Position numbers and translations under genes: made by a program. This document shows positions 1 through 26,552 of a DNA stretch of 64,000 nucleotides, one piece after another; the first letter of the stretch is position 1, and every line of letters starts with the position of its first letter. Source of the DNA: Citrus sinensis (Eukaryota; Streptophyta; Magnoliopsida; Sapindales; Rutaceae). The DNA lies in NCBI RefSeq assembly GCF_022201045.2, contig NC_068559.1:2082501-2146500 (forward strand), written 5' to 3'. The notes beneath the pieces are model-generated. The model did no database searches. It was not told the DNA's origin and saw only the letters and a list, made by a program, of their open reading frames with translations.

Positions 1-265
1 TCTAGTCTAACTATAGATTTGACCAATACATCCGCAAAATTTATCATGACACGAGTTTACAAAAATATGGAAGAATTGAAAAAATTATTCTTCTTTCCCG
101 TAATGCCACACAATTGCCTCATTTGGGAGGGAAAAATTCTCAATGTTGTTCATTTTTATCAAAATAAACAAAAAAAAAAAAAAACAGGGAATCATATAAT
201 ACTAATAATAAAAAAACAGATAGAATTTTAATTAATGAAAGCGATACAAAAATAAAAACAAAAGT

Positions 266-423
266 GTATACTTTGGGGCAGCATTTGCCGTTCCGACGCT
301 TGAAGGTCTGCCACAGAAAAAAAAAATATAATAAATCAAATTTATATTAAATAAAAACAATTCTTCTTTTTTCAATAATAATATTTTTGGAAATCAGAAA
401 GATAAAACATTTTCGCAAACCAT
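266..423 (-). pseudogene. RPS26 (eS26) 5' fragment, decayed duplicate
   Basis: This is the left-hand duplicate of the intact S26 gene at 25,098-26,552. The ATG-only first exon (421-423, followed by a GT donor) and part of exon 2 (272-307, both splice sites kept) can be aligned. Exon 2 has lost 57 bp between two GCCG repeats, so only 12 of 31 codons remain; the loss is in frame. Just upstream of the ATG the copy joins directly to sequence matching about 27,140 of the other copy, so roughly 560 bp holding the 5'UTR and probable promoter is missing. The later exons would lie left of the window and were not seen. Loss of function is inferred; expression cannot be judged. Confidence 0.85.
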
Positions 424-2043
424 TCTGTTTTCTTCAAGGGATGATCTCCCCTTTCCAATTTTTGACAACCACGCCTAATCCAATCATCATTTCTTCTGAA
501 GTTGACATTGCTGCATGAGTAAAAAAGAATGTTAAAATTGAATTATTCATTTGGAAGAATATCATGACGCAATTAAACAAAAACTGAATATTTTATCTTT
601 CGTACTCTCTCAATAATTTTGACTGCATACTTTTTCTGAAAAAAAAAAAAAAAAAACTCATATCTAGATTCAGTCACAAAGCCAAATCTCTCTAATCATA
701 CGTCTATATTAAGAAACACAAATAAGAGATTCCAAGAACTTGTTAACACCCTTTTGGAATAATTGATTCTGGATTTTCATACTTGGATAATGGCTTTTGC
801 TTGGATATCTCTCCAATCACTCAAACCCTTTCACACAATTGATTGAATCTCACTTGCTTGATTTATATTACATCGAGATTTTGAGCCTGGCATGGTTAAG
901 GAGTTTTAAAAGTGTAAAAAATTGAGTGATTGAAAAATGGGAGAAACCTGTAGTGTAACTGTGGTACTGTGCCAAAGTTGCATTCAGTCGTTGGATGTCA
1001 GTGGATCCTACTAATCTAAGTGCATCCAACGGCTGGATACAACTGTGGCATGGTACCACAGTTGCACCGTAGCCTGATCCTGAAAAATAATAGAGCTGAA
1101 AATGAGAGAAAATTTAGAATTATGGGAATTTTATTGGGGAAGAAAAAGTATTGTAAACTCAATGATGGGGTGATTAAGAAATAGGCCGAATAAAAAATAA
1201 AAAGAATTTAAATATCATCACTCAAATTTAATTGTATTTTTATTAAAAACATTAACCGGTGATTTCTATTTAAAGGAATAATATTTAAGTCCCTCAAATT
1301 TTTTATTTTTAACTGCTTGTATCTTTTTCTAAAACTTATTATACTCATAAGATATCAATATTTAATGTTCAAAATGACTTTTTCTAAATATTAAAACAAT
1401 TATTATTATTATTATTATTATTTGTTGTAATATAGTGGTAGGGATAAAAATCTAAGGGTGACAAAAAAATTGGTATTTAATAGAATTTTCGTAATGACAA
1501 AAAGTAAATGGACCCAAGTGATAAAACAATATAATTGATGGACAAAAGATCATTTTTCATTTGTGTTGCCGACACCGTAGTTTGGTTTACGCTTCCCGAC
1601 CCATGATATTCAAGTCCCGGTACCTTTGTCATCCCATAAAATTGTCCATAATTAAAATAAGGCATGTTTTATATTCTGTGGCTAATATTTAGAGCAAATG
1701 AATTTTCCAAGTCCTCCCATAAAGATATCATATCCCAACATAATCTTCAACCATTTTAATGGTTAAAATTACAAGAGAAGTCGTATCTATGTTTTATCAC
1801 AATTGTTTGGCAACCACCAAATTGGCCGTATAAAGCCATTGATGAATCAGAAAAAGATACCATTGTCGAAAACTTGGCCATTGTGGTCCCTGATGTATAA
1901 AACTGACCATAGGATTAGCAAAGGTTTGTCAGCTAGCGGAACTTACGTGTACGTCATGCACACTTAAATGTTATCTATATACTGTGTAGGCATTGCTCTG
2001 AACTAACCTCTTCATTCAGAGTCCCCGAGTCAGCTGCAAGGGA
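424..2043. other. Intergenic, 5' flank of P450 copy A
   Basis: No coding sequence is supported. Most of the stretch aligns with the flank of the second P450 at about 27,140-28,670, with small indels. A difference of roughly 250 bp around 930-1,180 includes a MITE. The last 150 bp are nearly identical in the two copies, including a CTATATA motif about 65 bp before the P450 start, so the proximal promoter is shared. Confidence 0.7.
951..1068 (+). mobile_element. MITE with ~28-bp inverted termini (family copy 1)
   Basis: The ends form an imperfect inverted repeat built around AACTGTGGTAC and its complement. The centre contains CTAATCTAAGTGCAT. A second copy in opposite orientation lies at 63,469-63,584; its reverse complement aligns along the full ~117 bp. 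No protein is encoded. The superfamily is unclear because no target-site duplication could be set with certainty. Confidence 0.75.
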
Positions 2044-3353
2044 ATGGCCATGAATAATCTTTCAGCAGAATCAACTGTTGCTGCAGCAATTTCAGCCTTA
2101 GTGATATTCCTCTCAATTTTCCTCTTGATTTCAAGAAATGGGCAAAAAAGGACACTCAAGAATAAGCAAGCTCAACAAGCACCGGTAGCAGAGGGAGCAT
2201 GGCCTTTGATAGGCCACCTACATCTCTTACGAGGGCCAGAGCCAGCTCACAGAGTTTTGGGCAACCTGGCTGACAAATATGGAACAATATTCACTATGAA
2301 GTTGGGGGTGAAACATGCTTTAGTGGTGAGCAACTGGGAAATTGCCAAGGAGTGTTTTACCACAAATGACAAAGCTTTTGCAGGTCGCCCCAAAACAATG
2401 GCCGTAGAGCTTATGGGGTACAACTTTTTGGTCATAGGCTTCGCACCATATGGCAACTACTGGCGTCAGTCACGTAAGATAGTGACAATTGAGCTTCTGT
2501 CAAATCGTCGCCTTGAGAAGCTCAAACACGTACGTGAATCTGAAGTGAAGGCTTCAATCCAGAGGTTATACAAGAATTGCATAAGTAGCAGCAGTTCACG
2601 TAAAGTAGTTTCGGTGGAGATGATCCATTGGCTCGAGGGCACAGCACTTGACATTATTTTGAGAATAATTGCCGGAAAACGTCACACTTCACAATCAGAA
2701 GAGGCTAATGATTGGCAACAGCAAATAACAAAGATCGCTGCCTTGTCTGGTCAGTTCGTGGTGTCCGATGCGTTGCCCTTTCTGAGACGGTTAGATATCG
2801 GTGGATATGAGAGATTAATGAGCAAGACAGCTAAATATTTTGACATCATTTTGCAAGAATGGGTGGATGAGCACAAGATGAAAAGAGTTTCTGGTGAAGT
2901 TAAGGGCGACGAGGATTTCATATATGTGTTGTTGTCCCTACTTGATGATAATGCAGAGCAGCTTCCCGATTGCGAAGCTGACACTGTCATTAAAGCAATC
3001 TGCTTGGTATAATATATCCTCATGAAATGCTTGTGGTGTGTTTGTGTTTGTATTGTAATATGAATGTCACAGATTTCTTACTGCTTTTAATTTGCAGACT
3101 CTAATCGTAGCGGCTGCAGAGACCACAGTAGTTACATTGACATGGGCTATTGCTTTACTTCTCAACAATCCCGAGGTTCTGAAGAAGGCACGAGATGAAA
3201 TAGACATTTAGGTTGGCACTGAAAGGCCAGTGAATGAATTAGACACGAGAAATTTGGTTTACTTGCAGGCCATTATCAAGGAAACAATGCGTTTATACCC
3301 TGCTGGACCACTTTTACTACCTCACGAGTCTATAGAAGAATGCGTCGTCAATG

Positions 3354-3358
3354 GTTAC
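3354..3358 (+). repeat. Target-site duplication of copia element (left)
   Basis: GTTAC directly before the 5' LTR; the same five bases follow the 3' LTR at 21,261-21,265. They belong to the P450 exon and mark the insertion point. Confidence 0.95.
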
Positions 3359-4023
3359 TGTGAGATGAATGAATCAAGTTTGGTTCCAGAAACGACCACG
3401 TTTTGGAGCTGTAAAGCTTCATTAAACTCACGTGCTTCTCAGCTGGTTAGCAACAGAAAACGAATTGATCAAAACGACAGGACTTGAGCGCGTTTTGCAT
3501 ATCAGTTTAAGTAACCACGTGAGGAAGCATGTGACGAAGGTTATCAGAGTTCGTTAAGGTTGTTAAACCACGTGGCATCGAGCTGTTTATTCTGGAAATC
3601 AAGCTGGCTACCTAGAACAGAGTATAAAGGCTGAGTTTCTGAGGTGATTCATGACGATCTTCATGAGTCTTGCAGAGAGGGTTTGCAAAGAGAGAAAGTG
3701 TTAATCTGTTCTCTGTAACGTCTGTTGTAAGGCTCTGTAACAATCTCCATTGTAATATCAATAAAGCTCATCTTGAGGCTTCTCCCGTGGATGTAAGCTG
3801 AGCATTCCATGCTCAGCTGAACCACGTTAATCTTGGTGTCTGTGGTTCTTTTCTTGGTTCTTGTTTCAGTTTCTTGTTTGTGTTCATTGCTATTGTGCTT
3901 TGTTGTTCTTGGGTGAATTCGTCTGAATAAATCTTGGGGGTGTGCAACTTGCATTGACTAAATCACAAGCATCCTAGGGCAGTGGTCAGTTTAGTTTGGT
4001 TATAGGCTTGCTGATTCACTACA
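3359..4023 (+). repeat. Copia 5' LTR
   Basis: It begins TGTGAGATGAATG and ends GATTCACTACA. It holds a TATA box (TATAAA, 3,623-3,628) and an AATAAA at about 3,759. After that comes a perfect 10-bp hairpin at 3,796-3,818. CACGTG/CCACGT motifs occur several times upstream of the TATA box and may be bZIP/bHLH sites. Confidence 0.95.
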
Positions 4024-4025
4024 AT

Positions 4026-4037
4026 TGGTATCAAAGC
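4026..4037 (+). other. Copia primer-binding site
   Basis: TGGTATCAAAGC lies two bases after the LTR. It matches the usual plant initiator-methionine tRNA primer site TGGTATCAGAGC with one mismatch. Confidence 0.85.
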
Positions 4038-4064
4038 TGTGGTGTTCTGTGATCAAGTCCAAGT

Positions 4065-7000
4065 ATGGTGTCTTCTAAGGTCGATATAGAAAAATTCACA
4101 GGCAAGAATGATTTCAATATGTGGAAGATTAAAATGGAAGCCTTGCTGATCACTCAGGGTTTGGGAGATGCATTTGAGCCTGAAATGAAGGAAGGTAAAG
4201 GGGTTTCTTCATCAAAGACTCCAGAGGAATTTGCTGAAATTCATAAAAAGGCCAGGAGTACAATAATCCTGAGTCTTGGTGATTCTGTCATTAGAGAAGT
4301 GGCCAAAGAAAAGACAGTGGCTGGATTATGGAGCAAACTGGGAAGTCTTTATATGACCAAGTCTCTTGCAAATAGACTCTACATCAAGAAGAGGATGTTT
4401 ACACTGAAAATGGTGGAAGGAGCTTCACTGGAAGAACACATTGATGAGTTTAACAAGGTATGTGATACCCTGGAAACCATTGATGCAGCTTTGGATGATG
4501 AAGGGAAGGCTCTCTTGCTTATCAGTTCATTACCAAAGTCCTATGAAAACTTGGTTGATGCCCTGATGTATGGAAGACAAACCCTAACACTTGATGAAGT
4601 AAAATCTGCCCTGAATACTAGGGAACTTCAAACTAAGCAAGGACATTTGGAGAATAGTGGAAGTGAAGGACTGACAGCAAATGTGAAGACTAACAAGAAG
4701 AAGAAGAAAGGCAAATCCAAGAACAAAGAAAGAGATCTAAAATGCTTTCAGTGTCACAAAGAAGGCCATTTTAAGAAGGATTGCCCAGAAAAGAAATCAA
4801 AGACAAAAGATTCAAGAAATCAAAGTGGAGATGCTGCTGTAGTAGAAGAGGAAGGATATGAGTCTGCTGGTGTATGTGTGGCAACAGAAAACAGCCAAAA
4901 AGGTAAATGGGTTCTGGACTCTGGATGTACCTTTCACATGTGCCCTTTTAGAAATTACTTTAATGAATATCAAGCATTTGATGGAGGTAGAGTGATGATG
5001 GGTAATAACTCTATTTGTAAAATCATTGGAATTGGGAATGTAAGTCTTAAACTACATGATGGTTCTATAAGAGTACTTAGGCAAGTCAGGCATGTACCAG
5101 ACTTGAAAAGAAATCTAATTTCTCTTGGAGTGTTGGACCAAATAGGGTGTAGAATTAAGCTTGAATCTGGTGAATTGAGTGTTCTGAATGGTTCAAACCT
5201 AGTCATGAAAGGGACTAGGAAGAATGGGGTTTACATCTTAGATGGTGAGGTGATATCTGGAGTAGCTGATGTATCCATTAAGCATACTGAAGATAAAACC
5301 AGGCTATGGCATATAAGGTTGGGGCACATGAGTGAGAGAAGGTTAAAAGAGCTAGCAAAACAAGGGTTGTTTGGTTCTGACAAGATTGGAAATCTGGAGT
5401 TTTGTGAAGATTGTGTTCTAGGGAAGTCTTCAAGGGGAAGCTTCAAAAGGTCTAGTCAGAAATCAAATGAGAGGCTGGATTATGCACACTCAGACTTGTG
5501 GGGGCCTGCACAATGTGTATCTCTGGGAGGGAATAGGTATTTTTTATCCATCATAGATGATTTCTCTAGGAAAGTCTGGGTATATGTGTTAAAAAACAAG
5601 GATCAGACTTTTGAGAAGTTTAAAGAATGGAAACAGATGGTAGAAAACCAAACTGGAAAAAGATTGACAAAACTGAGGACTGATAATGGTCTTGAATTCT
5701 GCAACCAGCCATTTGACAACTTTTGTGCAAATGAGGGTATAGCAAGACACAGGACAGTAAGGATGACCCCACAACAGAATGGGTTAGCTGAGAGGATGAA
5801 CAGGACCCTTATGGAGAGGGTAAGATGTATGCTGATTCAGTCCAAACTCCCAAAAATATTGTGGGCAGAAATCTTACTCACAGCTTGTTACCTTGTCAAC
5901 CTGAGCCCCTCTACTGGAATCAATTTCAAAACACCTTTCGAAACGTGGTCAGGGAAAACTGCTGACTATGGGATTCTTAAAGCTTTTGGCTGCCCAGCTT
6001 ATGTTCATGTCAGTCAAGGTAAGCTAGCTGCTAGAGCCTTGAGAGGCATTTTCATAGGCTATCCAGAAGGAGTCAAAGGGTTTAAAGTTTAGTGCACTGA
6101 CCTTAATCTACCAAAATGTATAGTAAGCAGGGATGTGGTGTTCAATGCGGGCAGTTTGATGAAGATGAATCATGAACCTGATCTGGAAACTGAAAATTCA
6201 AGACTAACAGAGAAGTTAGAGTTTGAGGTGGAGCCATCTACTTTCAGAAACACAACTGAAGCTGCAGAATCAGATGATGTTCCTGAAATCACTGATGACA
6301 CACAGGCACCTCAAGATCAGTCAAGTTCTCAGGAGCAAATCAGAGAATACCAGCTCACCAGAGATAGACAAAAAAGGCAGATTAAACCAACAAGAAGATA
6401 TGGCTATGCAGATTTAATAGGTTTTGCTCTTGCAGCTGCAAAAGATATAGATGATGAGGAACCAAAGAATTTTAAGGAAGCAACCCAGAGCCTGTTCAAA
6501 GAAGAATGGCAGAGAGCTATGGATGATGAAATGGCCTCCCTCTATAAAAACAACACATGGGAGCTGGTTAAGAAGCCTGGAAATAGGAGAGTGGTTGGCT
6601 GCAAATGGATTTTCAAAATCAAGGAAGGCACAAATGGATCTGAACCAAGGAGATTCAAGGCCAGACTTGTGGCCAAGGGTTATACACAAAAGGAGGGGAT
6701 AGATTTTAAAGAAGTGTTTTCTCCAGTGGTCAGACATGCCTCAATTAGAGTTATATTAGCCATAACAGCTGTGCAAGACATGGAGCTTGATCAACTCGAT
6801 GTCAAGACAGCATTTCTGCATGGAAGGCTTGAGGAAGAAATACTGATGTCCCAGCCTGAAGGGTATGAGATCCCAGGGAAGGAAGACCATGTGTGTCAGC
6901 TAAAGAAGTCACTCTATGGGCTTAAGCAGTCTCCCAGACAGTGGTACCTCAGATTTGATGAATTCATGCAACTACATGAGTTTATCAAATGCAGCTATGA

Positions 7001-8030
7001 CTGTTGTGTTTACTACAAGACAATCAAGGATGGTTTGTACATATACCTCCTTCTATATGTAGATGACATGTTGGTTGCTTGCAAAGATAGAGAAGAAATT
7101 GATAAGCTCAAGGTGCTGCTGAATTCAGAATTCGAAATGAATGATTTGGGGTATGCAAGGAAGATTCTAGGAATGGAGATCAGAAGAAATAGAAGTAAAG
7201 GGATCATGTTTCTATCACAAGAAAAATACTTGAGAAAGGTGTTAGAAACATTTGACATGAGCAAGGCTAAACCTGTGCAACTACCATTGGCTTCACATTT
7301 CAGGTTAAGCAATTTACAGTGCCCTCAAACAGAAGCTGAAAAGCAAGATATGGCAAGTGTACCCTATGCAAATGCAGTAGGCTGCCTTATGTATGCAATG
7401 GTCTTAACTAGACCAGACACATCTCATGCTGTCAGTGTAGTCAGCAGATACATGGCACAACCTGGGGAAGACCATTGGAAGGCAGTAAAATGGATACTCA
7501 GGTATCTCAATGGCACTGTAAATTGGGGTCTGATGTATGGCAAAACAGGAGCAAGTAATGAGGTTCTGAAGGGGTATGTTGACTCAGATTATGCAGGGGA
7601 TTTAGATAGGAGAAGGTCTCTTACAGGATACTTGTTCATGTTAAATGGTTGTGCTGTAAATTGGAAGGCAACACTACAAAGTGTAGTAGCTCTTTCAACT
7701 ACTGAAGCTGAGTATACAGCTGCTACAGAAGCTGTAAAAGAAGAACTTTGGCTCAAGGGGTTGGTGACAGAGCTGGGATTACATTAGAAGTCAGTATCAG
7801 TCTATTGTGACAGCTCAAGTGCCATACACTTGAGTAAAAACCCTGCACACCATGAAAAGACAAAGCATATAGACATTAAGCTCCATTTTATCAGAAATGA
7901 AGTGTCAAGGGGTGCTGTGAAAATGGTGAAGATTCATATTGATGAGAATCCTGCAGATGCATTTACAAAGGTGATTCCTGTGGCTAAGTTCAGAGCTTGC
8001 CTGGACCTAGCTGGCTTGTGCAGTCAGTAA
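4065..8030 (+). pseudogene. Copia gag-pol polyprotein, two in-frame amber stops
   Basis: One reading frame of 1,322 codons runs from the ATG at 4,065 to the TAA at 8,028. It is broken only by TAG at 6,090-6,092 and TAG at 7,785-7,787. Domains in order: UBN2-type gag; CCHC knuckle CFQCHKEGHFKKDC near residue 227; aspartic protease DSGCT near 285; integrase zinc-binding region near 416 and its acidic triad (HSDLWGP near 475, RTDNG near 538, AERMNR near 573); reverse transcriptase YVDDM near 998; and RNase H with DSDYAG near 1,173 and KHIDIKLHFIR near 1,267. From family conservation the first stop probably replaced Trp and the second Gln. The first stop falls between integrase and RT, so only gag, protease and integrase could be made. 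Confidence 0.95.
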
Positions 8031-8034
8031 TATG
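8030..8034 (+). repeat. Target-site duplication of gypsy element (left)
   Basis: ATATG; the first A is the last base of the copia stop codon. The same five bases follow the other LTR at 20,534-20,538. Confidence 0.95.
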
Positions 8035-9394
8035 TGTTGTGCAAATTTTAATGTACTCGCAAGCGCACGAATCTATTGTAGTATAGACTAATGGTGACGA
8101 GTGTCGATCCCACGAGGAGGTGGATTTTAATTATATGTAGAATTAATTTTGTAAATGGGTAGTTGGATTTATGGTGGAAATGATTTGGAATATACTAATA
8201 ATTAAATTAAAATGGCGAGAATAAATTCTAAAATTGGAATTGCAATTGAGAGAATAAATTGAAGAGAAAATCTATTAAATTGACGTACTTGGGTATCTGG
8301 ATCCGTATCAACATGCATCATGGGCTAAATATTCCTTAGTAATACCAATTAAATCATGAGGGGGGAATCCACACCTCATGAACCACGCTCTAATCAATAT
8401 GGTGCTAAGGGCTTATCGTGCCAAATAATAATAACCTTGTACCAGAGGGCCGGTGAAACCAAGGCGGTACTAGACAAGATTAGTATTATTTGTCGACGAG
8501 AAGTCAAAACATCCACAAAAACTAGAGGGGAAGAGAAAATAAATTTACCAAATTAAGCCCGTGACACATGTTGAGACTTCACCTTCAACCCAAGCTTGAA
8601 AGAAAATTAGCCACTCATAATTGAACTAGGGGCAAAATGGGAATTTATTAAAATACAAAGAAAATACAAGATGGAGAGGGAATTACAGAAAATGGATCCC
8701 AAAAATGGATTCAGAGATATCAAATTAGGGGGGGGAGGCCCCCTTTTTATAGATACATGGAGTAAATCATGGCCATCGGATTAAAAACAGTTTGGACGCT
8801 CAGGATTGCGCCACGTCATCAGTCAACAGTCCACGGTTTGACCACGCGGATGAACAGTAACACGGTTTGACCCGACTTTGAACAGTAACGCGGTTTGGTT
8901 GAAAATAATCCTGTGTGATGCATGCACCGTACGCGAGATTTTTCGTCCACTGATATGCTGCCACGTCACCATCAACAGTGCATAAGAATTTTAGTCCAAC
9001 AGGATCGTGACACCTCATCAGTCAATGCCACATCATCGGTCAATGCCACGTCATCATCCGTTTATGTGAACAGTGTCGTGAACAGTAACGTATACAGTAC
9101 CGTACACGTGAATAGTACCGTACATGTGAATAGTGCCATTTTTCCTTTTATGCTCCTCCTAAGGTTTTCGACCGTCCTGAGTTCAAAAGTGATGTCCGTT
9201 TTGCCGTCTGATCTCTCCTTTATTGTGAAATGACTATAATGCCCCTAAAATACATAAAATACTTAATTAAAATAAAACACATGTAATTAAATCACAAGAA
9301 GGTTAAATATATAACAGTAAGGGTTGTTAGTAAGACTTAAAATGTAAAATGACGGTTTTCTCCTTTATAAATATGCATTTTCTAACACTCAACA
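8035..9394 (-). repeat. Gypsy 3' LTR
   Basis: 1,360 bp. On the minus strand it begins TGTTGAGTG and ends CACAACA. A TATA box (CTATAAAAAGG, minus strand) lies at 8,742-8,752. The region 8,810-9,140 is rich in repeated GAACAGTAACG, CGGTTTGACC and ACGTCATCA words that look like stacked regulatory sites. This copy lacks one 26-bp unit present in the 5' LTR. Confidence 0.95.
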
Positions 9395-9406
9395 CACCCC
9401 CCAACC
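9395..9406 (-). other. Gypsy polypurine tract
   Basis: On the minus strand GGTTGGGGGGTG abuts the 3' LTR, the expected position and composition for plus-strand priming. Confidence 0.85.
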
Positions 9407-11320
9407 AGCTTATTGCTAGTCCCTAGCAAATAAAGCGAAAATAAAATTCAAATTCAAAATATATATATTTTTTTAATAGAAACACTCGTATTTATTCCAT
9501 CAGATTAATGATAGCAATCAAATAAAAGTATAAGCATTATCTCCAGTCTAAAGCAACATCACACCCACATCAACCATCCACATGAATTAGCCCAGTAGAC
9601 TTTGTTTTAGCTACTCTCAAGAATGACATGTCAAACCCCAAAATCTCACTGGAAGTAGTGACACTCTCACAAATAAATTAATCCCAATAAAAATAGTCAC
9701 TCCAATGAATGGTAATTGAGAGAGAAAATAATAAAGAAGTGATATCACATGCTCTCACCAAGATGAAATAAATATGCCCTCAGCTTAGAAATAATACGAT
9801 CTCAAGTCAAATAAAATGTTAGTCAACCCACTTTATTTATCTTTTTTTTTTTTAATTATGCATCACTACATCTTTTTAGCCCATATAACTATCTTCTACT
9901 TCGGACTATAGTTCCCTAAAATCAAGAAGGACTTTTATTAGGACGTAACGTAGGCTAGGGACATGGTTAACAAAGAAGGGAAATAAGGAAAACAAAGTGT
10001 ATGTTTGAGAAAAATGCAGAGAATTTTTTTTTTTTTTTTGGAAGTTGCAAGGTGGATTTCACCTATTTTTATTCTTTTGAAACAACAACTTTTGTTTTTG
10101 TTTTTGTTTTTGTTTTTTTGTTTTTGTTTTTTTTTTTTTTTGCTTTTATTTGGCATAACTTCACTGAACAAAATAATTATTTACATTTTCTCAAACATAA
10201 ATAGGTGATGGAACTTATAAGACATCGGGTAATACTCCAAATCGGAGTGGGTCAAGATGATAAGTTGACAAAGAAAATGTTTTTTTTTTTTAAAGGCTCA
10301 AAAGGGTTAACTATGGATATTTAATAAAATGGATGGCTAGAAAGGCTCAAACGGATCAAAGATGGCCTTTCCATCGTCTTTTATGGCTCTGAATAACCTT
10401 CCATATCTACTAGTTAGATGGGCCTCCAAATGTAGCAACACACTTTTTTTTTTTTTATTAAGGGTTAACTCAAAAGAAATTTAGAGATCGTGTATACAAT
10501 AATAAACTGTTAAGCTGTATAAAGAATGGGCAAAAGGGTTACTCTCCAAGAAAAATGATAGGCTCAAAAACTCACTTGGTACTTATTATGACATGTTCAT
10601 TCCTTCAAGCAACTCATATATGTCTCCAACATCAACATGTAGAGTAGCAAACATAATGTAACATCACTTAAGACCAAAGATAATACAAATACTAAAATTT
10701 AAATTAATCATGTCACCCAATGTTAAAACAAATCAAAAAAAAATTTTTTTTTAAAAAAAACATTCTACCCCCCAACCTATTCTAAACATAAAAAAGAAAA
10801 AAATATGCATGCAGAAATGTGAAAATGATGTAGAAAAATTAATTTAGAAAAGTTACATTTAAAATGATAGAAAAGAAAATGATTTTTTTATTATTTTTTT
10901 TAAAGAAGATGCGTTTCTAGAGGAACTACACTCCATATTCAGCCATCTTCGACTCAAAAGTTGGAAAATGCATTTTTATAGAGGATAAATTAAAAAGAAG
11001 AAAAATAAACATAAACACATAATAAAGAAAAAAGAAAATGTCTTAATTTTTTTTTTTAAGTTTTTTTTTTTTAATTTTTTTTTTAAACTATGAAGATGCG
11101 TTTCTAGAGTCACTACACTCCATATTCAGCCATCTTCAACTCAAAAAGTTAGCAACAGTTAGTTTCTACAACAAAAAATTAGTAAAAACTTAACCAAAAT
11201 TTCATAATTGTCGACTATTCCCTCCCCCCAACCAGAACGAAACATTGTCCTCGATGTTTGAAATGAAAGAAGTAGAGTTTAGAAGACATCACCTGGGTGG
11301 TGCAACACAGAAGAAAATAT
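9407..11320 (-). other. Gypsy 3' noncoding region with direct repeats
   Basis: No coding sequence is supported. The stretch is AT-rich with long T runs on the plus strand (10,026-10,040, 10,090-10,141, 11,048-11,084). A ~58-bp unit, starting GAAGATGCGTTTCTAGAG and ending near CATCTTCRACTCAAAA, occurs twice at 10,905-10,961 and 11,092-11,150. Each unit is itself partly self-complementary (GAAGATG/CATCTTC). Confidence 0.7.
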
Positions 11321-11989
11321 TTACAGGCGGAGAGTTAAATCTAATTTGTACTTCTTACTGCTGCTACTGTTACCATCATTATTTGGGCGCTCCAACACAA
11401 AGGTCCAGGGGTCTAGCTCCGGTTTATACGCTTGTAACAGATCAAGTAGCTCATTAGCAGTGTGAGCACAAATAAAGAGTTTTTTCACATTAGCGGGAAT
11501 GAAATAGTTTTTTATTGCATGGTTAAGAAATGCGATAAAGCCATCATAAAAGTTATTGACATTTAACAAACCGATGGGTTTTTGGTGGATGTGCAGATGG
11601 GCCCAAGATGCTAGCGTGATAAGTGCCTCTAGTGTTGCAAGATCTCCTGGAAGGAAAATAAAAGCATCAGCATGATTAAGCATTTCAGTTATTCTTTCTT
11701 GCATACCTGAGACGACTAACTCTTCTCCAGTTGATGAGTCAGACGAACTGCCCAATGGTTTTAAGACTCTTGGGATGATGCCTAACACTTGACTTCCTCT
11801 GATAAAAGCTGCTTCTGAGACCATTTTTGATAACCCTCGATTACCTCCTCCATACACCAAGTGTAATTTTCTCGCTGCTATGCTTCGACCAAGATCTATG
11901 GCTGCCTCAACGAACTCTTTATGTTTGCCATAGGTAAATCCAGAAAGCACACAAATGTTCTTGAATTGTCTATTGGAAGTAGCTGCCAT
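11321..11989 (-). CDS. LOG-like phosphoribohydrolase homologue carried by the retrotransposon
   Basis: This is an intronless ORF of 222 residues with LONELY GUY (TIGR00730, Rossmann-type) architecture over its whole length. The ATG at 11,989 was chosen because it sits in a good plant context (CACAATGGCA) and gives the usual LOG length; the frame is open upstream without an ATG. Visible blocks: N-terminal NICVLSGFTYGKHKEF (family: CVFCGSS), YGGGNRGLSKMVSEA at 46-60, GIIPR at 70-74, the catalytic-type Arg99 in MQERITEM, and PGDLATLE at 114-121 in place of PGGxGTxxE. Glu121 is kept but two glycines are lost. IHQKPIGLLNVNNFYDG follows at 134-150. Family members release active cytokinin bases from their riboside monophosphates; whether this variant does is unknown. 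Host LOG genes have introns, so capture of a processed mRNA is inferred. Confidence 0.88.
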   Translation of the reverse strand: MAATSNRQFKNICVLSGFTYGKHKEFVEAAIDLGRSIAARKLHLVYGGGNRGLSKMVSEAAFIRGSQVLGIIPRVLKPLGSSSDSSTGEELVVSGMQERITEMLNHADAFIFLPGDLATLEALITLASWAHLHIHQKPIGLLNVNNFYDGFIAFLNHAIKNYFIPANVKKLFICAHTANELLDLLQAYKPELDPWTFVLERPNNDGNSSSSKKYKLDLTLRL

Positions 11990-12309
11990 TGTGATACTTC
12001 TCGAAAACAATTTGTGAGTGCTTGACAAAAAAGAAATCACATTTAAGAGTCTTGGTGATAGTGGGTCATGGTTGTGTATGAGGTAATATGTCAGTGTCAA
12101 ATAACGCGTAAAGCACGTGGCTCGCAAGTCAAAAAGAAAACAGTAAAAAGGAAAAAGCAAACAGTAATAAAATTATTAAAGACAATAATGCAAACAATAA
12201 GACAATAGTGAAATAAAATAACAATAAAGTAAAAGGATATTTACAGGTAGTTGCGACTGTGGCTCACATCTTCCTCTGGTTTTACGTCCAGAAACGGCTT
12301 GAACGCCCT

Positions 12310-12867
12310 CTATGGGTCGAGGATAGGCTTCCTATCCAGTTTTCTTATAAACTGGCAAACAGGGTCGTTTATAGTCAGATTCCCGAGACTATATCGTGCA
12401 TGCTCTTTCTGGAATAACGGCCATAACTGGAGAATCGCTCCTTGCACATATCCACTGGGATGCGTTTCAAGAGACAAAAGGATATCATCCAATGACTCCT
12501 TATTCAAGCCATCCCTAATGAATTGAATCTTATCTTCCCTGTTATCAGACACCATTCCTAAAGAACATGGGTTTTTATTGCAACTCATTCTGGCACACTT
12601 ATGACAAGCAACAGAAATTCTTCGAGCTCGTCGTTTTCTTGCATAATTTCCTTTACCACAACCAGGCATGTATGCAATAAATTTTGGAGGTAACTCACCT
12701 GCCGATCGTACTTTAGCCTCGATTAACCAACGGATGTCAGCAGGTATGTTATTCCTCATGAGTAATCGCATGCGTTCGGACCGAGCTTTATAGATCGTAA
12801 GGAGGGCATTCTGAGGAAGTGAAGGGAATCGCTTGTGAAGCTTCGCTAGAATCTCGTTTCTGTCCAT
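12310..12867 (-). CDS. 185-aa basic four-cysteine protein in retrotransposon (NABP/CRP-like)
   Basis: This is an open frame from ATG to TAG on the element's coding strand, between the small ORF and the LOG-like ORF. The first 60 residues look helical (FPSLPQNALLTIYKARSERM). A glycine-rich turn leads to a strongly basic run NYARKRRARR (75-83), which could be a nuclear or RNA-binding signal. A possible zinc site follows: Cys88-x2-Cys91-x4-Cys96-x4-Cys101, then KIQFIRDG. The order YAR-basic run-four cysteines-FIR-G resembles the cysteine-rich nucleic-acid-binding proteins of carlaviruses (Viral_NABP), several of which suppress RNA silencing. This is my reading of the pattern, not a search result. 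The 80-residue C-terminal tail is not recognised. It is not an Athila env-like protein by any feature I can see. Confidence 0.6.
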   Translation of the reverse strand: MDRNEILAKLHKRFPSLPQNALLTIYKARSERMRLLMRNNIPADIRWLIEAKVRSAGELPPKFIAYMPGCGKGNYARKRRARRISVACHKCARMSCNKNPCSLGMVSDNREDKIQFIRDGLNKESLDDILLSLETHPSGYVQGAILQLWPLFQKEHARYSLGNLTINDPVCQFIRKLDRKPILDP

Positions 12868-13008
12868 ACCTTCGCCTCAGAATATCAGTTATTATGGGAA
12901 ACTGAAGTAACCGACTTGATTGTCACGGAGTACCGTTATCCGCCATTTCACCGGGGTAACAAACTAAAGCACACAAATAGAAAAACAAATTAAAACACAC
13001 AAAGAAAA

Positions 13009-13242
13009 TTAAAATCGTCCTCTTATTGAATTTACCTCAAGCTCCAACTGGATGTCGTAAACACTTCTCTCAATGTCTCTGAGTTGGTGTTCTAAACCCT
13101 CAACATAGGCTACTAACTCTGGTGGTTGTAGAGCCCAAATGCGATGTGTTTTACAAAATTGAATCTGTCTTTTGAGATGAGTTTTGACACGTTGAAGTGG
13201 TTTAAGAATGTTCAGGAGGAACGGTCTAAGTATGAGACTCAT
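13009..13242 (-). CDS. Small basic protein with hydrophobic N-terminus, in retrotransposon
   Basis: 77 residues from the ATG at 13,242. The frame stays open upstream and would add a more hydrophobic stretch (FILPLSFLLSFLI) if a spliced or non-AUG start were used. The N-terminus is hydrophobic (SLILRPFLLNIL). A Lys/Arg-rich middle follows, and then an acidic helical end with heptad-like spacing (VEGLEHQLRDIERSVYDIQLELEV) that could form a coiled coil. It lies 127 bp after the end of pol and on the same strand. No family is recognised. Its position matches the env-like region of Athila elements, but the protein is far too short for an envelope. Confidence 0.45.
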   Translation of the reverse strand: MSLILRPFLLNILKPLQRVKTHLKRQIQFCKTHRIWALQPPELVAYVEGLEHQLRDIERSVYDIQLELEVNSIRGRF

Positions 13243-13369
13243 GATTAAAAATGATAAGAGAAAACTTAATGGTAAAATAAACACACTTATGCAAAAACAA
13301 TTTCAATTAGCAAAAGAATAATAATAAAAAGAAAGAAAGAAAAATCAAATCAACGAAAAGAAAAAAAAA

Positions 13370-16300
13370 TCAATTCAAATTTGGTGGGTCACTCAAATTT
13401 ATTTCGGTGTCTTCTTCATGTGGTTGGTACTCTAGATATGGCTTTAATCTTTGACCATTAACTTTAAACGTGACACCGTTCTTTGGGTCTTTAATTTCAA
13501 TTGCCCCATGTGGAAAAACAGTATGAACAATAAATGGGCCAGACCATCGAGAGCGTAACTTACCTGGGAATAGGTGCAAGCGAGAATTGAATAAAAGCAC
13601 TTTCTGACCTAGGGTGAAAGATTTTCTCATAATTTGCTTGTCATGGAAGACTTTCATTCGTTGCTTGTAAATCTTGGCATTTTCGTACGCGTCATTGCGA
13701 ATTTCTTCAAGTTCTGCCAGCTGTAATCTTCTTTCTGAGCTGGCTTGCTGCATGTCAAAATTGAATTTCTTGATGGCCCAATACGCACGATGCTCGAGTT
13801 CCACAGGTAGGTGGCAAGCTTTTCCATACACTAGCCTGTAGGGTGACATCCCAATCGGGGTCTTGAAAGCCGTTCTATATGCCCATAATGCATCATCAAG
13901 TCTTAATGACCAATCTTTTCTGTCTGGCCTCACCGTTTTTTCTAATATGTGCTTTATTTCTCGATTGGAGATCTCAACTTGGCCACTGGTTTGCGGATGA
14001 TACAGGGTCGCCACTTTGTGTGTGATTGAATACTTTGTCAAAAGAGCCTTGAATGCTTTGTTACAAAAGTGGGCACCACCATCACTGATTATCGCTCGAG
14101 GGAATCCAAAGCGTGAAACAATGTTGCTTTTCAAAAATCCTATCACCACTTTGTGATCATTGGTCCTACATGGAATTGCTTCTACCCATTTCGAGACGTA
14201 GTCAACACCAACCAATATGTATTGATGGCCAAAAGAAGGGGGAAAGGGTCCCATGAAGTCGATACCCCATACGTCAAAAATCTCAACCACTAAAATTGGA
14301 TTTAGTGGCATCATGTTTCTTCGTGTAATGCTCCCCATTCGTTGACACCTATCACATGAAGAACAGAAAGTGTAAGCATCTCGAAATATAGTTGGCCAAT
14401 AGAAACCACATTGTAAAACTTTTGTAGCTGTTTTCTTAGCACTGAAATGGCCTCCACACGCTTGTTCATGGCAGAATGAAAGAATATTCTGAATTTCATT
14501 TTCAGGGACACATCGTCTAACAATTTGGTCTGCACAATACTTGAACAAATATGGGTCATCCCAAAAGAAATTCTTTATTTCTGCAAAGAATTTAGCCTTA
14601 TCTTGCTTGGTCCAATGCTCTGGAAGTTTACCTGTAACAAGATAATTAACTATATCAGCATACCAAGGTAATACTTCCACATTCATTAATTGTTCATCTG
14701 GAAATGACTCATTCAATGGTAATGATTCTGTAATTGTGTCAAAATGGAGACGAGAGAGGTGGTCCGCCACAACATTCTCTGTCCCTTTTTTATCTTTGAA
14801 TTCCAAGTCAAATTCCTGCAAAAGTAACACCCAACGAATTAGTCTGGCTTTTGCATCTTTCTTTGTGAGAAGATATTTAAGAGCAGCATGATCTGTAAAT
14901 ATAATTATTTTACAACCAATGAGATATGATCGAAATTTTTCCAATGCAAACACTACTGCTAGCATTTCTTTTTCAGTAGTTGAATAGTTCAACTGTGCAT
15001 CATTCAATGTCATACTAGCATAGTAAATAACATGGGGAATTCGATCAACTCTTTGTCCTAATACTGCTCCTACTGCATAATCAGATGCATCACACATTAG
15101 CTCAAATGGTAAGTTCCAGTTTGGGGCCTGAATGATGGGTGATGATGTCAACAAATGCTTTAATTTTTCAAATGCCACAAGACATGAATCATTAAAGACA
15201 AAAGGTGCATCCTTAGCAAGTAAATTGCATAAGGGTCTAGAAACTTTGCTAAAATCTTTAATGAAACGTCTATAAAAACCAGCATGCCCAAGGAAAGATC
15301 TTACTTCTCTGATTGTTTTAGGTGGAGGAAGATTAGAAATGAGATCCACCTTGGCTTTGTCAACCTCAATACCTTTGCTCGAAATGATGTGACCGAGAAC
15401 AATACCTTGTTTTACCATAAAATGGCATTTCTCCCAATTTAAGATCAAGTTCTTCTCGATACATCTCTGCAGAACTAGTGTTAGATGATGTAAACATTGA
15501 TCAAACGAGTCACCAAAGACAGAAAAATCATCCATAAAGACTTCAAGGAATCGTTCAACCATATCAGAAAAAATGCTCAACATGCATCGTTGAAATGTAG
15601 CAGGTGCATTACATAATCCAAATGGCATTCTCCTATATGCAAATGTGCCAAAAGGGCAAGTGAAAGTAGTTTTCTCTTGATCTTTTGGTGCTATGGGAAT
15701 CTGATTATATCCTGAGTAACCATCTAGAAAGCAGTAAAATTCATGGCCTGCTAATCTATCAAGCATTTGATCAATAAATGGTAAAGGAAAATGGTCTTTA
15801 CGTGTGACAGAATTCAATTTTCTATAATCAATGCATACACGCCATCCTGTAGTCACTCTAGTGAGTATCAATTCATTATCAGCATTGGTAACTACTGTGA
15901 CTCCTGACTTTTTAGGGACAACTTGTACAGGACTGACCCATGAACTATCAGAAATTGGGTAAATGATACCTGCATCTAATAGCTTAAGGACTTCAGTTCT
16001 AACCACTTCTTTCATATTAGGATTTAACCGACGTTGCATTTCCCTAGTAGATTTAGCATTTTCATCAAGGTGAATGTAATGCATGCAGTCTACTGGATTT
16101 ATACCTTTGATGTCTGCTATGGTCCATCCTAATGCTCTTTTGTGCTCTTTTAAAACATCCAACAACTTACCTTTTTGTTCATCATTTAGGGATGATGAGA
16201 TGATTACCGGCAGAGTACTTTCTTCTCCCAAAAACGCATATTCCATAGTGTTGGGCAATGGTTTGAGCTCGAGTTTCGGTGGTGATTCTGATGATGGAAT

Positions 16301-18762
16301 GAGTTGCTTCTCTGATGGTGCTAGTTGCTCAACTCTTGACTTCCATTTATTAGTATCCATAGATGGTGCTGAGTCAAGCAGGGCGTTGACCTCATCAACC
16401 GATCTGTCAATATCAAAATCAAAACCAAAGTGAGTTAAACATGTTTGTAAATGATCATCACTAAGGTTTGAAAGAAAAGTGTCATCAACTAATGCTTCGA
16501 TTAAATCCACATCAACAATTCCATCATCTGCACTGTGAGGTTGTTTGGCAATGTTGAAGATGTTCAACTCCATAGTCATGTTGCCGAAGGACAATTGCAT
16601 ATTTCCGGTCCTACATTGAATGTGAGCATCCGCAGTTGCCAAGAAAGGTCGGCCTAGAATAATGGGGATGTGCTTCCTTGAATCCTGTATTGGTTGAGTG
16701 TCAATTACAATGAAATCAACAGGAAAATAAAACTTGTCTACCTGGATAAGCACGTCCTCCACAATACCACGAGGTATTTTCGTGGACCGATCTGCAAGCT
16801 GTAACACCACTGGAGTTGGGTGTAATTCTCCCAGTCCAAGTTTCACGAATACAGAGTAAGGCAAAAGATTTACACTAGCTCCTAAATCCAACAAAGCATT
16901 CTCAATTGTGTGGTTCCCTATACTACATGAGATAGTGGGGGAGCCTGGGTCTTTGCATTTTAAAGGAATTTTATGTTGGAGTATAGAACTAACGTTTTCT
17001 GTTAAAAATGCCTTCTTTTGAACATGCATGTTTCTCTTTTTAGTACACAAATCTTTAAGAAACTTGGCATAAGATGGAACTTGGTTTATAGCATCAAGTA
17101 AAGGGATGTTAACACTTACCTGTTTGAAGATTTCGAGAATCTCACCTGTAGATTTTCCCTTTTTTCCTTTCGCTAACCTCTGAGGAAATGGAGCTTTGGG
17201 AACGTATTCTCGTGGGTTGGCTTCTTCTCTCTCCTCCGGTGGTGAGTCCTCAACATTCACAGGTACAATTTGATTTTCTTTTGTCACCGGCATCTCCACT
17301 TTGTTGTCGACTTCTTTTCCTTTTCGCAAGGTCATTACTGCTTTGACTTCTCCATGCTGCTGTGGTGAACTGGTACTTGCTTCATGCACTCCTTTAGGGT
17401 TAGGCACTGGTTGACTTGGAAACTTACCTTTCTCAACGGTCATTGCCAAGGTCTGAACTGAAGAAGCAAGTTGTCCCACCATCTTCTCAAGGCTTGAAAC
17501 TGATTGAGCTTGTGAGTTGAAGCCTGCTCTCAACTCATTTCGTAGTCCATCAATGGTGCGGTTCTGTTGCTCAATCGTGGAGTGAGTAAGATTCTTAAGA
17601 TTCTGGAATGAATCCTCCCATGGTCTGGGCTGAGAGTAATTCTGGTTCTGATTGTATGGTCTAAATGGTGGCTGAGAGGCTTGAGAAGTTTGAGAAATTT
17701 GTTGCATTGGTGGAGCTGGAGCTGCTGGTCCATTCTGTTGGAATCCTTGAGACCATGAAAAATTGGGGTGATCTCTCCATCCAGGGTTATATGTGTTGGA
17801 GTATGGGTTGTAATTTGATGGCTTTCTCATTACACCTATGGCATTGGCTTGATCTGAGTATGAGTCATGGTCATGTGGTTCTGTTGATTTAGCAGTCGAT
17901 AATGATGCTATTTGTCGAGCAAGACCTTCAACCATCTCCTTGACTTCTTTGATTCCTGAAGTTGACTCGCCAATGTGAACCTCATTCACTCCTTTAATCC
18001 TTCTAGTATTCCTGAGTGATCGACTCCGTTGTTGGGAATTGTCCGCTTGTCGCTGGAAGAATTCCCAAATTTCTGACACACTTTTTGACATTAGCTCTCC
18101 TCCACTTGTTGCCATTAGCCATTCTTGCACATTCGGCAATAATCCCTCCAAAAAGTATTGGCATTGGTGCCATTTCTCGTACCCATGATGTGGACACTTC
18201 AAGAGTAGCCCATTGAATCGCTCCCATGTTTCAAAAAACTGCTCGTCCTCTCTCTGGGTAAACTCCGAGATTTCCCTGCGAATAGCGTTGGTTTTATGCA
18301 CTGGGAAATATTTATTTAAAAATTTTGTAACCATTTGTTCCCATGATGAAATGCTATTGGCAGGTAAATTATTTAACCATGAACGAGCTCTATCCTTTAA
18401 AGAAAATGGGAATAGTCTAAGTTTAACATCATCGTCTGAAAAATTTTCATATTTAAAAGTTTGACAAATGGCATGAAAATCGTTCAGTGATTATATGGAT
18501 CCTCATTTTCTAGGCCATAAAATGTGGGGAGACAATTTAGCACACTAGGTTTTAGTTCAAAGCTCCTAGCAGCTACATTAGGGTATCTTATGCATGATGT
18601 GCTCAAATTAGCTAAAGGACTGAAGTAGTCCTTAAATGGCCTCTCTTGTGGTTGCAAATCCATTTCAAATTTATTTTTAATGTGCTTTTGTGTGCGAAGT
18701 GTTTTTTCTAATTCAAGGTCTATAGGTTCAAGATTAGGTAATAATGACCTACGACCATGCAT
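13370..18762 (-). pseudogene. Athila-type gag-pol, one frameshift in gag, pol intact
   Basis: The likely start is the ATG at 18,762 (MHGRRSLLPN). The gag frame ends at a TGA at 18,484-18,486, just after ENEDPYNH, where one base appears to be missing. The following frame is open from there to 13,370 (1,654 residues from its first ATG at 18,334). Domains, counted from 18,334: retrotransposon gag 1-130; the Athila [17 protein letters not shown] segment near 175; protease LLDLGAS near 476; RT with CIDYRKLN and catalytic FMDD near 931; RNase [14 protein letters not shown] near 1,083; integrase zinc region near 1,290 and D-D-E (GIDFMGPF near 1,355, SDGG near 1,414, QVEISNRE near 1,452). No chromodomain is visible. 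Ribosomal frameshifting at the break is not suggested by any slippery site I can see. Confidence 0.95.
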
Positions 18763-19123
18763 GCAAAACAAATAAAAAGAAAATAAAGATGGGAACAAAA
18801 CAAATAAAAATAAAGAAGAGGGAGAAATTACGATACTAACCTTATTGCGCTATTACAACCTTACTATAAAAATACACAAAAACAAATATGTGAAATAAAT
18901 TAACTAAAAATAAATTAATAAGATAAACAAAAAAAAATTACAAAGAAAAATAAATTAAAAATTAAATTACAGAATTTTACAGAAGAGAAAAAGAAAAAAA
19001 AATACTAACCTTTAAATGCAGATTCAATTTTTTTTTCTTTTTTTTTTAATAAAAAAAATTACAAGAAAATAATTAAAAGAAATTGTTCACAAAAATTAAT
19101 TCTATGAATTAAAATTACTTACC
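18763..19123 (-). other. Gypsy 5' leader between PBS and gag
   Basis: AT-rich, with A/T runs on both strands. It corresponds to the untranslated leader and packaging region. No ORF or clear hairpin stands out by eye. Confidence 0.6.
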
Positions 19124-19141
19124 TCCCCGGCAACGGCGCCA
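19124..19141 (-). other. Gypsy primer-binding site (tRNA-Asp)
   Basis: The minus strand reads TGGCGCCGTTGCCGGGGA, an exact complement of the 3' end of plant tRNA-Asp(GUC), six bases from the 5' LTR. This primer is typical of Athila elements. Confidence 0.95.
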
Positions 19142-19147
19142 AAAACT

Positions 19148-20533
19148 TGTTGTGCAAATTTTAATGTACTCGCAAGCGCACGAATCTATTGTAGTATAGA
19201 CTAATGGTGACGAGTGTCGATCCCACGAGGAGGTGGATTTTAATTATATGTAGAATTAATTTTGTAAATGGGTAGTTGGATTTATGGTGGAAATGATTTG
19301 GAATATGCTAATAATTAAATTAAAATGGCGAGAATAAATTCTAAAATTGGAATTGCAATTGAGAGAATAAATTGAAGAGAAAATCTATTAAATTGACGTA
19401 CTTGGGTATCTGGATCCGTATCAACATGCATCATGGGCTAAATATTCCTTATTAATACCAATTAAATCATGAGGGGGGAATCCACACCTCATGAACCACG
19501 CTCTAATCAATATGGTGCTAAGCGCTTATCGTGCCAAATAATAATAACCTTGTACCAGAGGGCCGGTGAAACCAAGGCGGTACTAGACAAGATTAGTATT
19601 ATTTGTCGACGAGAAGTCAAAACATCCACAAAAACTAGAGGGGAAGAGAAAATAAATTTACCAAATTAAGCCCATGACACATGTTGAGACTTCACCTTCA
19701 ACCCAAGCTTGAAAGAAAATTAGCCACTCATAATTGAACTAGGGGCAAAATGGGAATTTATTAAAATACAAAGAAAATACAAGATGGAGAGGGAATTACA
19801 GAAAATGGATCCCAAAAATGGATTCAGAGATATCAAATTAGGGGGGGGAGGCCCCCTTTTTATAGATACATGGAGTAAATCATGGCCATCGGATTAAAAA
19901 CAGTTTGGACGCTCAGGATTGCGCCACGTCATCAGTCAACAGTCCACGGTTTGACCACGCGGATGAACAGTAACACGGTTTGACCCGACTTTGAACAGTA
20001 ACGCGGTTTGACCCGGATGAACAGTAACGCGGTTTGGTTGAAAATAATCCTGTGTGATGCATGCACTGTACGCGAGATTTTTCGTCCACTGATATGCTGC
20101 CACGTCACCATCAACAGTGCATAAGAATTTTAGTCCAACAGGATCGTGACACCTCATCAGTCAATGCCACATCATCGGTCAATGCCACGTCATCATCCGT
20201 TTATGTGAACAGTGTCGTGAACAGTAACGTATACAGTACCGTACACGTGAATAGTACCGTACATGTGAATAGTGCCATTTTTCCTTTTATGCTCCTCCTA
20301 AGGTTTTCGACCGTCCTGAGTTCAAAAGTGATGTCCGTTTTGCCGTCTGATCTCTCCTTTATTGTGAAATGACTATAATGCCCCTAAAATACATAAAATA
20401 CTTAATTAAAATAAAACACATGTAATTAAATCACAAGAAGGTTAAATATATAACAGTAAGGGTTGTTAGTAAGACTTAAAATGTAAAATGACGGTTTTCT
20501 CCTTTATAAATATGCATTTTCTAACACTCAACA
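19148..20533 (-). repeat. Gypsy 5' LTR
   Basis: 1,386 bp, the partner of 8,035-9,394. It carries one extra 26-bp unit near 20,010 (ACCCGGATGAACAGTAACGC...), a tandem copy of the neighbouring GAACAGTAACGCGGTTTG word. At least five substitutions separate the LTRs by my reading. The TATA box is conserved near 19,860. Confidence 0.95.
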
Positions 20534-20583
20534 ATATGCAAAAGGGTTGGAGAAGGATTTAGAGTGAGGATAAACTTTGATTC

Positions 20584-20595
20584 AAGGTGGAGAAT
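20584..20595 (+). other. Copia polypurine tract
   Basis: AAGGTGGAGAAT lies immediately before the copia 3' LTR, where plus-strand synthesis is primed. Confidence 0.75.
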
Positions 20596-21260
20596 TGTGA
20601 GATGAATGAATCAAGTTTGGTTCCAGAAACGACCACGTTTTGGAGCTGTAAAGCTTCATTAAACTCACGTGCTTATCAGCTGGTTAGCAACAGAAAACGA
20701 ATTGATCAAAACGACAGGACTTGAGCGCGTTTTGCATATCAGTTTAAGTAACCACGTGAGGAAGCATGTGACGAAGGTTATCAGAGTTCGTTAAGGTTGT
20801 TAAACCACGTGGCATCGAGCTGTTTATTCTGGAAATCAAGCTGGCTACTTAGAACAGAGTATAAAGGCTGAGTTTCTGAGGTGATTCATGACGATCTTCA
20901 TGAGTCTTGCAGAGAGGGTTTGCAAAGAGAGAAAGTGTTAATCTGTTCTCTGTAACGTCTGTTGTAAGGCTCTGTAACAATCTCCATTGTAATATCAATA
21001 AAGCTCATCTTGAGGCTTCTCCCGTGGATGTAAGCTGAGCATTCCATGCTCAGCTGAACCACGTTAATCTTGGTGTCTGTGGTTCTTTTCTTGGTTCTTG
21101 TTTCAGTTTCTTGTTTGTGTTCATTGCTATTGTGCTTTGTTGTTCTTGGGTGAATTCGTCTGAATAAATCTTGGGGGTGTGCAACTTGCATTGACTAAAT
21201 CACAAGCATCCTAGGGCAGTGGTCAGTTTAGTTTGGTTATAGGCTTGCTGATTCACTACA
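20596..21260 (+). repeat. Copia 3' LTR
   Basis: 665 bp, the same length as the 5' LTR. Two differences are seen: CTTCTCAG versus CTTATCAG, and CTACCTAG versus CTACTTAG. It is followed by the GTTAC TSD at 21,261-21,265 and the rest of the P450 exon. Confidence 0.95.
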
Positions 21261-21628
21261 GTTACCATGTCCCCGCAGGCACCCAACTGTTTGTTAACGC
21301 TTGGAAGATTCAACGCGACCCAAGTGTATGGGAGGAGCCATGTCAGTTTCAGCCAGAAAGATTTCTTACGAGGTATAAGGATATTGATGTTAGGGGGCAA
21401 AATTTTGAATTGATACCATTTGGCAGTGGAAGACGAATGTGTCCTGCAGTGTCATTAGGCCTCCAAGTTGTGCAACTAACGCTTGCTTCATTAGTGCATG
21501 CGTTTGATTTCACAACCCCATCAGATGAACCGGTTGACATGGGAGAGGCAATGGGCCTAGCCATTGCTAAAGCTACACCACTTGAAGTGATTCTTAGTCC
21601 ACGCCTTTCTGCTTCTTTATATGGTTAA

Positions 21629-25097: not shown

Positions 25098-26552
<1,455 letters not shown>

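Follow-up and report, generated by a model that had tools for sequence, protein, structure and literature searches.

A 64,000-nucleotide stretch of Citrus sinensis DNA (the window) carries an LTR retrotransposon that encodes an intronless relative of the plant LOG enzymes. Judged from the sequences compared, the gene is of LOG ancestry, is present in many copies and is under purifying selection, and its copies have in common the loss of the active site and a conserved C-terminal tail. We propose that it probably serves the retrotransposon otherwise than by making cytokinin. Our tentative preference, held at somewhat less than even confidence, is that a captured and catalytically dead LOG is kept by selection as a non-catalytic accessory protein, most likely a nuclear adaptor.

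The LOG-like frame (11321..11989, minus strand; ATG at 11989, stop codon ending at 11321) encodes 222 amino acids. In profile searches it exceeded the cut-offs of PF03641 (E 8.8e-28, 97.5 bits, cut-off 27) and TIGR00730 (E 2.8e-36, 124.9 bits, cut-off 96.35), and it matched the NCBIfam LOG equivalog NF058542 at a score far under the cut-off (91.4 bits, cut-off 300). The closest solved structure is At2g37210/2a33 (E 3.8e-45). An AlphaFold model built from an alignment of 73 sequences (mean pLDDT 80.7, with residues 197-222 below 50; a shallower input of 21 near relatives gave 36.5) superposes on 2a33 with a TM score of 0.93 when target-normalized and 0.74 when query-normalized. Arabidopsis LOG3 (At2g37210) and LOG8 (At5g11950) have both the fold and the overall sequence in common with the element protein. 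A BFVD fold search with the model was uninformative, with a cyanophage LOG family protein and weak SLOG-like folds among the matches listed, and a scan of IMG/VR with the window protein (P0001) found no relatives.

Unlike this intronless frame, three LOG loci of the host genome align to Arabidopsis LOG3 as separate exon pieces. Two of these loci, L031 (C7:1413099) and L032 (C7:1366520), are similar, intron-bearing and about 47 kb apart; L032 may be a pseudogene, with a stop inside the last piece of its match. An earlier description made from the window letters (the sequence-only reading) had placed a full-length, stop-free LOG-like frame on the coding strand of the element, between pol and the 3′ LTR, and had traced it to capture of a processed LOG, given that plant LOG genes have introns and this frame does not. 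The domain and structure matches, the minus-strand orientation in common with gag-pol, the position relative to the 3′ LTR and the exon pieces of the host loci all support that description, and its motif spellings PGDLATLE and LSGFTYG are both correct.

The carrier is a minus-strand element of about 12.5 kb, with LTR ends TGTTG/CAACA, a 5′ LTR at 19148..20533, a 3′ LTR at 8035..9394 and a target site duplication ATATG at 8030..8034 and 20534..20538. A primer binding site, TGGCGCCGTTGCCGGGGA (19124..19141, minus strand), which we take to match plant tRNA-Asp, and a purine-rich (G-run) tract adjoining the 3′ LTR (9395..9406, minus strand) were read from the sequence. One frame (13370..18334, minus strand) encodes gag, protease, RT, RNase H and integrase in that order, followed by an extra ORF region and the 3′ LTR. 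This architecture fits the Athila lineage, and the carrier is provisionally called Athila-like Ty3/gypsy. The two LTRs differ by 5 mismatches over 1,360 aligned sites and one 26-bp indel (K2P 0.0037), which at an assumed rate of 1.3e-8 substitutions per site per year dates the insertion to about 0.14 Myr and marks the element as young. The start of gag (18335-19147) seemingly lies in another frame than the rest of gag-pol, and this copy therefore looks broken outside the LOG-like gene.

Athila elements are abundant in Citrus (PMC7145672). Scanning the genome (299.7 Mb, 11 contigs) with the window protein gave 2,109 places past the first look; the best 150 were scored, and all of them match end to end, or almost so, at 96-100% identity. 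An internal stop is absent from 149 of these best 150 of 2,109, a share biased upward because only the best-scoring copies were counted. A diverged query revealed further subfamilies, many of whose copies contain stops. The at least 150 full-length copies rule out both a chance open frame and a one-off capture, and they support the Athila-type residence claimed by the sequence-only reading, as a multi-copy one; the element copies are closer to the window gene than any of the host LOG loci found.

A second frame, ORF185 (12310..12867, minus strand; 185 amino acids, basic and Cys-rich), lies upstream of the LOG-like frame. It is present upstream of the LOG-like frame at 30 of 30 loci in L001-L030 and gives a near-full match at 25 of 26 in L035-L060, the remaining one (L041) matching over 52 residues; it was not found at the partial locus L033 or at the host LOG loci L031, L032 and L034, and L061-L070 are too short for it to show. 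The window ORF185 weakly resembles PF01623, a carlavirus nucleic-acid-binding protein (16.3 bits, under the cut-off of 20.9), and two of four other ORF185-bearing sequences pass that cut-off (P0050 and P0272 above; P0242 and L039 below). It is a candidate second accessory gene. The LOG-like gene itself is intronless, multi-copy, located at the same place in the element and under purifying selection, as a captured accessory gene should be.

Of 70 loci, 63 with full-length copies entered the selection analysis; the other 7 (three host genes and the partial L033, L058, L060 and L061) were dropped. Pairwise NG86 estimates for 17 representatives of four subfamilies (A-D) gave dS of 0.48-1.0, dN of 0.10-0.19 and dN/dS of 0.14-0.26 between subfamilies, the dS values near 1 being close to saturation; the pooled dN/dS was 0.184 over six non-independent pairs of four representatives. 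For A-B and C-D, whose paths have no branch in common on a tree of 36 proteins, Fisher tests on averaged site counts gave p ~5e-20 and p ~2e-14. Along the protein, dN/dS is 0.21 before the pocket, 0.108 in the pocket region, which is the most constrained part, 0.123 in the part that follows, 0.49 (relaxed) in a 21-codon spacer, and 0.128 in the last 11 codons, this last value coming from small counts (19.5 synonymous, 14.5 non-synonymous). The corresponding range for ORF185 is 0.18-0.29; in five of six pairs the LOG-like gene has the lower ratio, and in one the two genes tie. Comparisons inside subfamily A give 0.08-0.27 and those between old copies inside B and D 0.39-2.3, the latter as expected if copies drift once inserted. 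The ratios between subfamilies, far below 1, rule out plain decay and bear out the earlier view that the frame is under selection; none of the outcomes that the sequence-only reading had named as counting against it was observed.

Published work on the C. glutamicum LOG proposes Arg99 and Glu122 as catalytic residues, lists Gly116, Gly118, Thr119 and Glu121 (an adenine contact) among the AMP contacts, and assigns Met96, His97, Lys100, Glu125 and Trp129 to a putative prenyl site, with Glu125 and Trp129 coming from the neighboring subunit of the dimer (PMC4979012). With the exception of Ser19, replacing an AMP-binding or catalytic residue by alanine leaves almost no activity (PMC4979012). In this numbering, the window protein reads PGDLATLEA (residues 114-122; 11624..11650, minus strand) in place of PGGxGTxxE, with Glu122 changed to Ala, Gly116 to Asp and Gly118 to Ala. 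Position 122 is Ala in 60 of the 63 genomic copies, Val in two, Pro in one and Glu in none. In all 63, Gly116 is replaced by Asp, Gly118 by Ala, Lys100 by Ile, His97 by Gln and Glu125 by Thr; Arg99 (61/63), Glu121 (62/63) and Trp129 (62/63) are kept, and Thr119 is likewise conserved. Among 121 proteins (P0001-P0121), which show scattered substitutions and include partial models, position 122 is Ala in 109 and never Glu, and Arg99 is kept in 102. The 54 host LOGs in the alignment are all canonical at the 13 sites compared.

The sequence-only reading had stated that the catalytic Arg and Glu are both kept. This holds for Arg99; the kept Glu is Glu121, and the position count in PGGxGTxxE together with the published numbering (PMC4979012) rules it out as the catalytic residue. 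Both catalytic residues are described as completely conserved in all LOG subgroups, with same-fold proteins lacking them excluded (PMC5379747); by this definition the element protein, which does not have the pair, is LOG-derived and not a LOG enzyme. Judged from these residues, catalytic activity is very probably absent. The same Glu-to-Ala difference separates the P. aeruginosa LOG chains 5zbj and 5zbk, the latter titled as a complex with AMP.

The protein ends in KKYKLDLTLRL (residues 212-222; 11324..11356, minus strand), a basic cluster followed by LxLxLxL of the EAR-type consensus. This tail, which went unmentioned in the sequence-only reading, is in its family form KKxKLDLTLRL among the most invariant parts of the protein. 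All 63 genomic copies encode LxLxL within their last 12 codons. Among protein sets searched over the final 20 residues, the motif is present in 86 of the 121 proteins P0001-P0121 (the remainder includes partial models and substitutions) and in 27 of 53 proteins that were new among the best 120 of 143 matches. Host LOGs, unlike the element gene, have introns and a canonical PGGxGTxxE, and their C-termini are free of LxLxL: in a set almost wholly of the LOG1/LOG3 type, the motif lies within the last 20 residues in 0 of 120 and elsewhere in 5 of 120. The EAR consensus, LxLxL or DLNx(x)P, is commonest in the C-terminal quarter of proteins, LxLxLxL forms are known, and the C-terminal EAR motif of the effector HaRxL21 binds TOPLESS (PMC9956375). 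By its motif, the tail may bind a corepressor, which we rate as a reasonable possibility short of an even chance, and its basic cluster is a putative nuclear signal.

Named proteins among the 120 matches listed in the first protein search are all from Citrus x changshan-huyou; the rest derive from ENA, JGI and Logan data. A final protein search yielded 143 matches; among the best 120 are seven proteins of Xanthoceras sorbifolium (Sapindaceae, of the order Sapindales like Citrus) at 47-51% identity and five further relatives (P0279, P0280, P0287, P0289 and P0290) at 48-54%. On the 36-protein tree, the Citrus proteins, the five relatives and the Xanthoceras proteins form one clade (97/94), in which Xanthoceras (93/93) is sister to the rest (99/95); that tree resolves no link between the element clade and host LOG lineages. 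The Xanthoceras models P0260 and P0263 are fused to stretches matching the window gag-pol (59% and 52%, E ~1e-7), so an Athila-type setting is likely there too. Searching the window genome with P0279 gave nothing closer than 55-59% identity among 150 places scored, and this protein is therefore not evidently from that genome.

The clade spans a range of active-site states. Six of the seven Xanthoceras models read PGG[FL]GTLEE (P0258 reads PERFGTLEE). The Xanthoceras proteins P0283 and P0284 have the canonical residue at each of the 13 sites, and their C-terminus, SKKRRLA, lacks LxLxL. In all five further relatives Lys100 is Ile, and Glu125 is Thr (four) or Gln (one). A strict LxLxL tail is present in three of the five; P0287 and P0290 have LDIDL. 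The same two proteins keep Glu122 of the motif and have Gln in place of the catalytic Arg99, a second and different route to site loss. A parsimonious order, from sequence, would begin with a single capture, after which the prenyl site was lost, the tail was acquired and catalysis then disappeared on separate occasions.

Under the reading that we prefer, a plant LOG would have been captured as an intronless copy by an Athila-like lineage, become an accessory gene and lost catalysis, with selection on the element retaining a non-catalytic job. The dead fold would supply a dimer and a partner surface, the protein would enter the nucleus, and its basic cluster and LxLxLxL tail would bind a TOPLESS-family corepressor, repressing host genes or titrating the corepressor to the benefit of the element. 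In this complete form, the protein would be a retrotransposon-encoded host-manipulating effector, a former hormone enzyme whose nuclear/EAR tail recruits or titrates TOPLESS, a possible but doubtful proposition. LxLxL is short and arises in the last 20 residues of shuffled P0001 in 3.3% of cases by chance, P0287 and P0290 have only LDIDL, and the Xanthoceras proteins P0283 and P0284 have no such motif. Conservation of Arg99, Glu121, Thr119, Trp129 and the pocket also argues against a dead adaptor, as ligand binding or an unforeseen activity is possible. The conserved pocket region and tail would also suit a role inside the element: the fold would bind a nucleotide, RNA or an element protein and help in packaging, import into the nucleus or integration, and the tail would serve as a nuclear or docking signal with no connection to TOPLESS. 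The adjoining accessory frame ORF185 favors such a role, but the Asp in the phosphate loop speaks against ordinary nucleotide-monophosphate binding and nothing points specifically to packaging, and we consider it rather unlikely.

Conservation of the fold and pocket region, with a prenyl site built from both subunits in LOG dimers (PMC4979012), would also suit a dominant-negative or decoy protein whose dead subunit pairs with host LOG, so that active cytokinin is reduced or diverted at sites of element expression. At about 35-39% identity to host LOG3-type proteins, however, the fit of the interface is doubtful, and the conserved tail is left unexplained, making this explanation unlikely. The sequence-only reading had mentioned a decoy or other role as an aside, which fits better than its main proposal, that the element raises active cytokinin in dividing cells and so promotes its own spread. 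That proposal can draw on the fold, Arg99 and purifying selection, and could hold in Xanthoceras, where P0283 and P0284 are canonical; for Citrus it is disfavored by the replacement of the catalytic Glu122, the phosphate-loop glycines 116 and 118 and much of the prenyl site (Lys100 and Glu125 included) in all subfamilies examined, against a catalytic pair completely conserved in all LOG subgroups (PMC5379747), and we regard it as highly improbable. We give equally little credence to a passenger gene without present function, open only through the youth of its copies. Stops in older copies and the high ratios within B and D are consistent with a passenger, but the low dN/dS between subfamilies, the Fisher tests for A-B and C-D, and a constraint at least as strong as that on ORF185 in six of six pairs are not.

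The presence of a LOG-type (YgdH) domain in Ty3/gypsy LTR elements of C. sinensis and C. clementina is already known (Alvarado-Marchena et al. 2022, PMC9289625); the same paper gives YgdH in P. trichocarpa elements with the filter off and cites Steinbauerova et al. 2011. With the same domain, the same Ty3/gypsy type and the same genus, those elements are almost certainly of the lineage of the window element. In the section on this domain, the account consists of the domain match and the LONELY GUY link, without active-site loss, selection or the tail. It was the only paper with both YgdH and retrotransposon among the matches listed in our literature search, and active-site loss, selection, an EAR tail or Xanthoceras relatives of a retroelement LOG were not found among those matches. 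An AlkB-type m6A demethylase of Phalaenopsis Ty3/gypsy elements is likewise a host-derived domain in an extra ORF, retained across several subfamilies; its cofactor residues are intact and it shows activity in vitro (PMC9289625), whereas the Citrus LOG-like gene has lost its site. Pathogen effectors of the HaRxL21 type resemble the element protein as parasite proteins with an EAR consensus, C-terminal in HaRxL21 as in the element tail (PMC9956375; for EAR-motif effectors see also PMC7446885). TOPLESS binding has been demonstrated for HaRxL21 (PMC9956375). For the element protein, where a transposable element takes the place of the pathogen, such binding is suggested by the motif.

The gene offers a case of a host enzyme retained by a transposable element after loss of its catalytic site, with TOPLESS binding as a directly testable alternative job; if that job is real, TOPLESS would be a target common to pathogen effectors and transposable elements. 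The clade forms a graded series, in which the site is canonical in Xanthoceras, partly lost in the five further relatives and fully lost in Citrus, and is useful for studying the passage from an enzyme to a non-catalytic element protein. Many of the proteins P0002-P0121 carry the UniRef name cytokinin riboside 5′-monophosphate phosphoribohydrolase. On element-borne pseudo-LOGs this name is likely an annotation error, and the element-borne Citrus proteins bearing it are very likely not cytokinin enzymes; misnamed, they would distort hormone-gene counts in Citrus.

Several other features were observed around the gene. Downstream of the LOG-like frame lie two direct repeats of 77 bp (10883-10959 and 11070-11146, 83% identical), in a stretch that also holds two extra G-run tracts resembling the one at the 3′ LTR. 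A Ty1/copia-type element (3359-21260) surrounds the Athila-like one, which inserted about 60 bases before the copia 3′ LTR. The LTRs of this outer element (3359-4023 and 20596-21260) are 99.7% identical and flanked by GTTAC, and its frames of 675 and 550 amino acids lie at 4065-7787 on the plus strand; the copia label is our reading of these frames. This outer element itself interrupts an older repeat (1-3358 and 21261-22978), a second copy of which, 75-95% identical, lies at 26079-31049.
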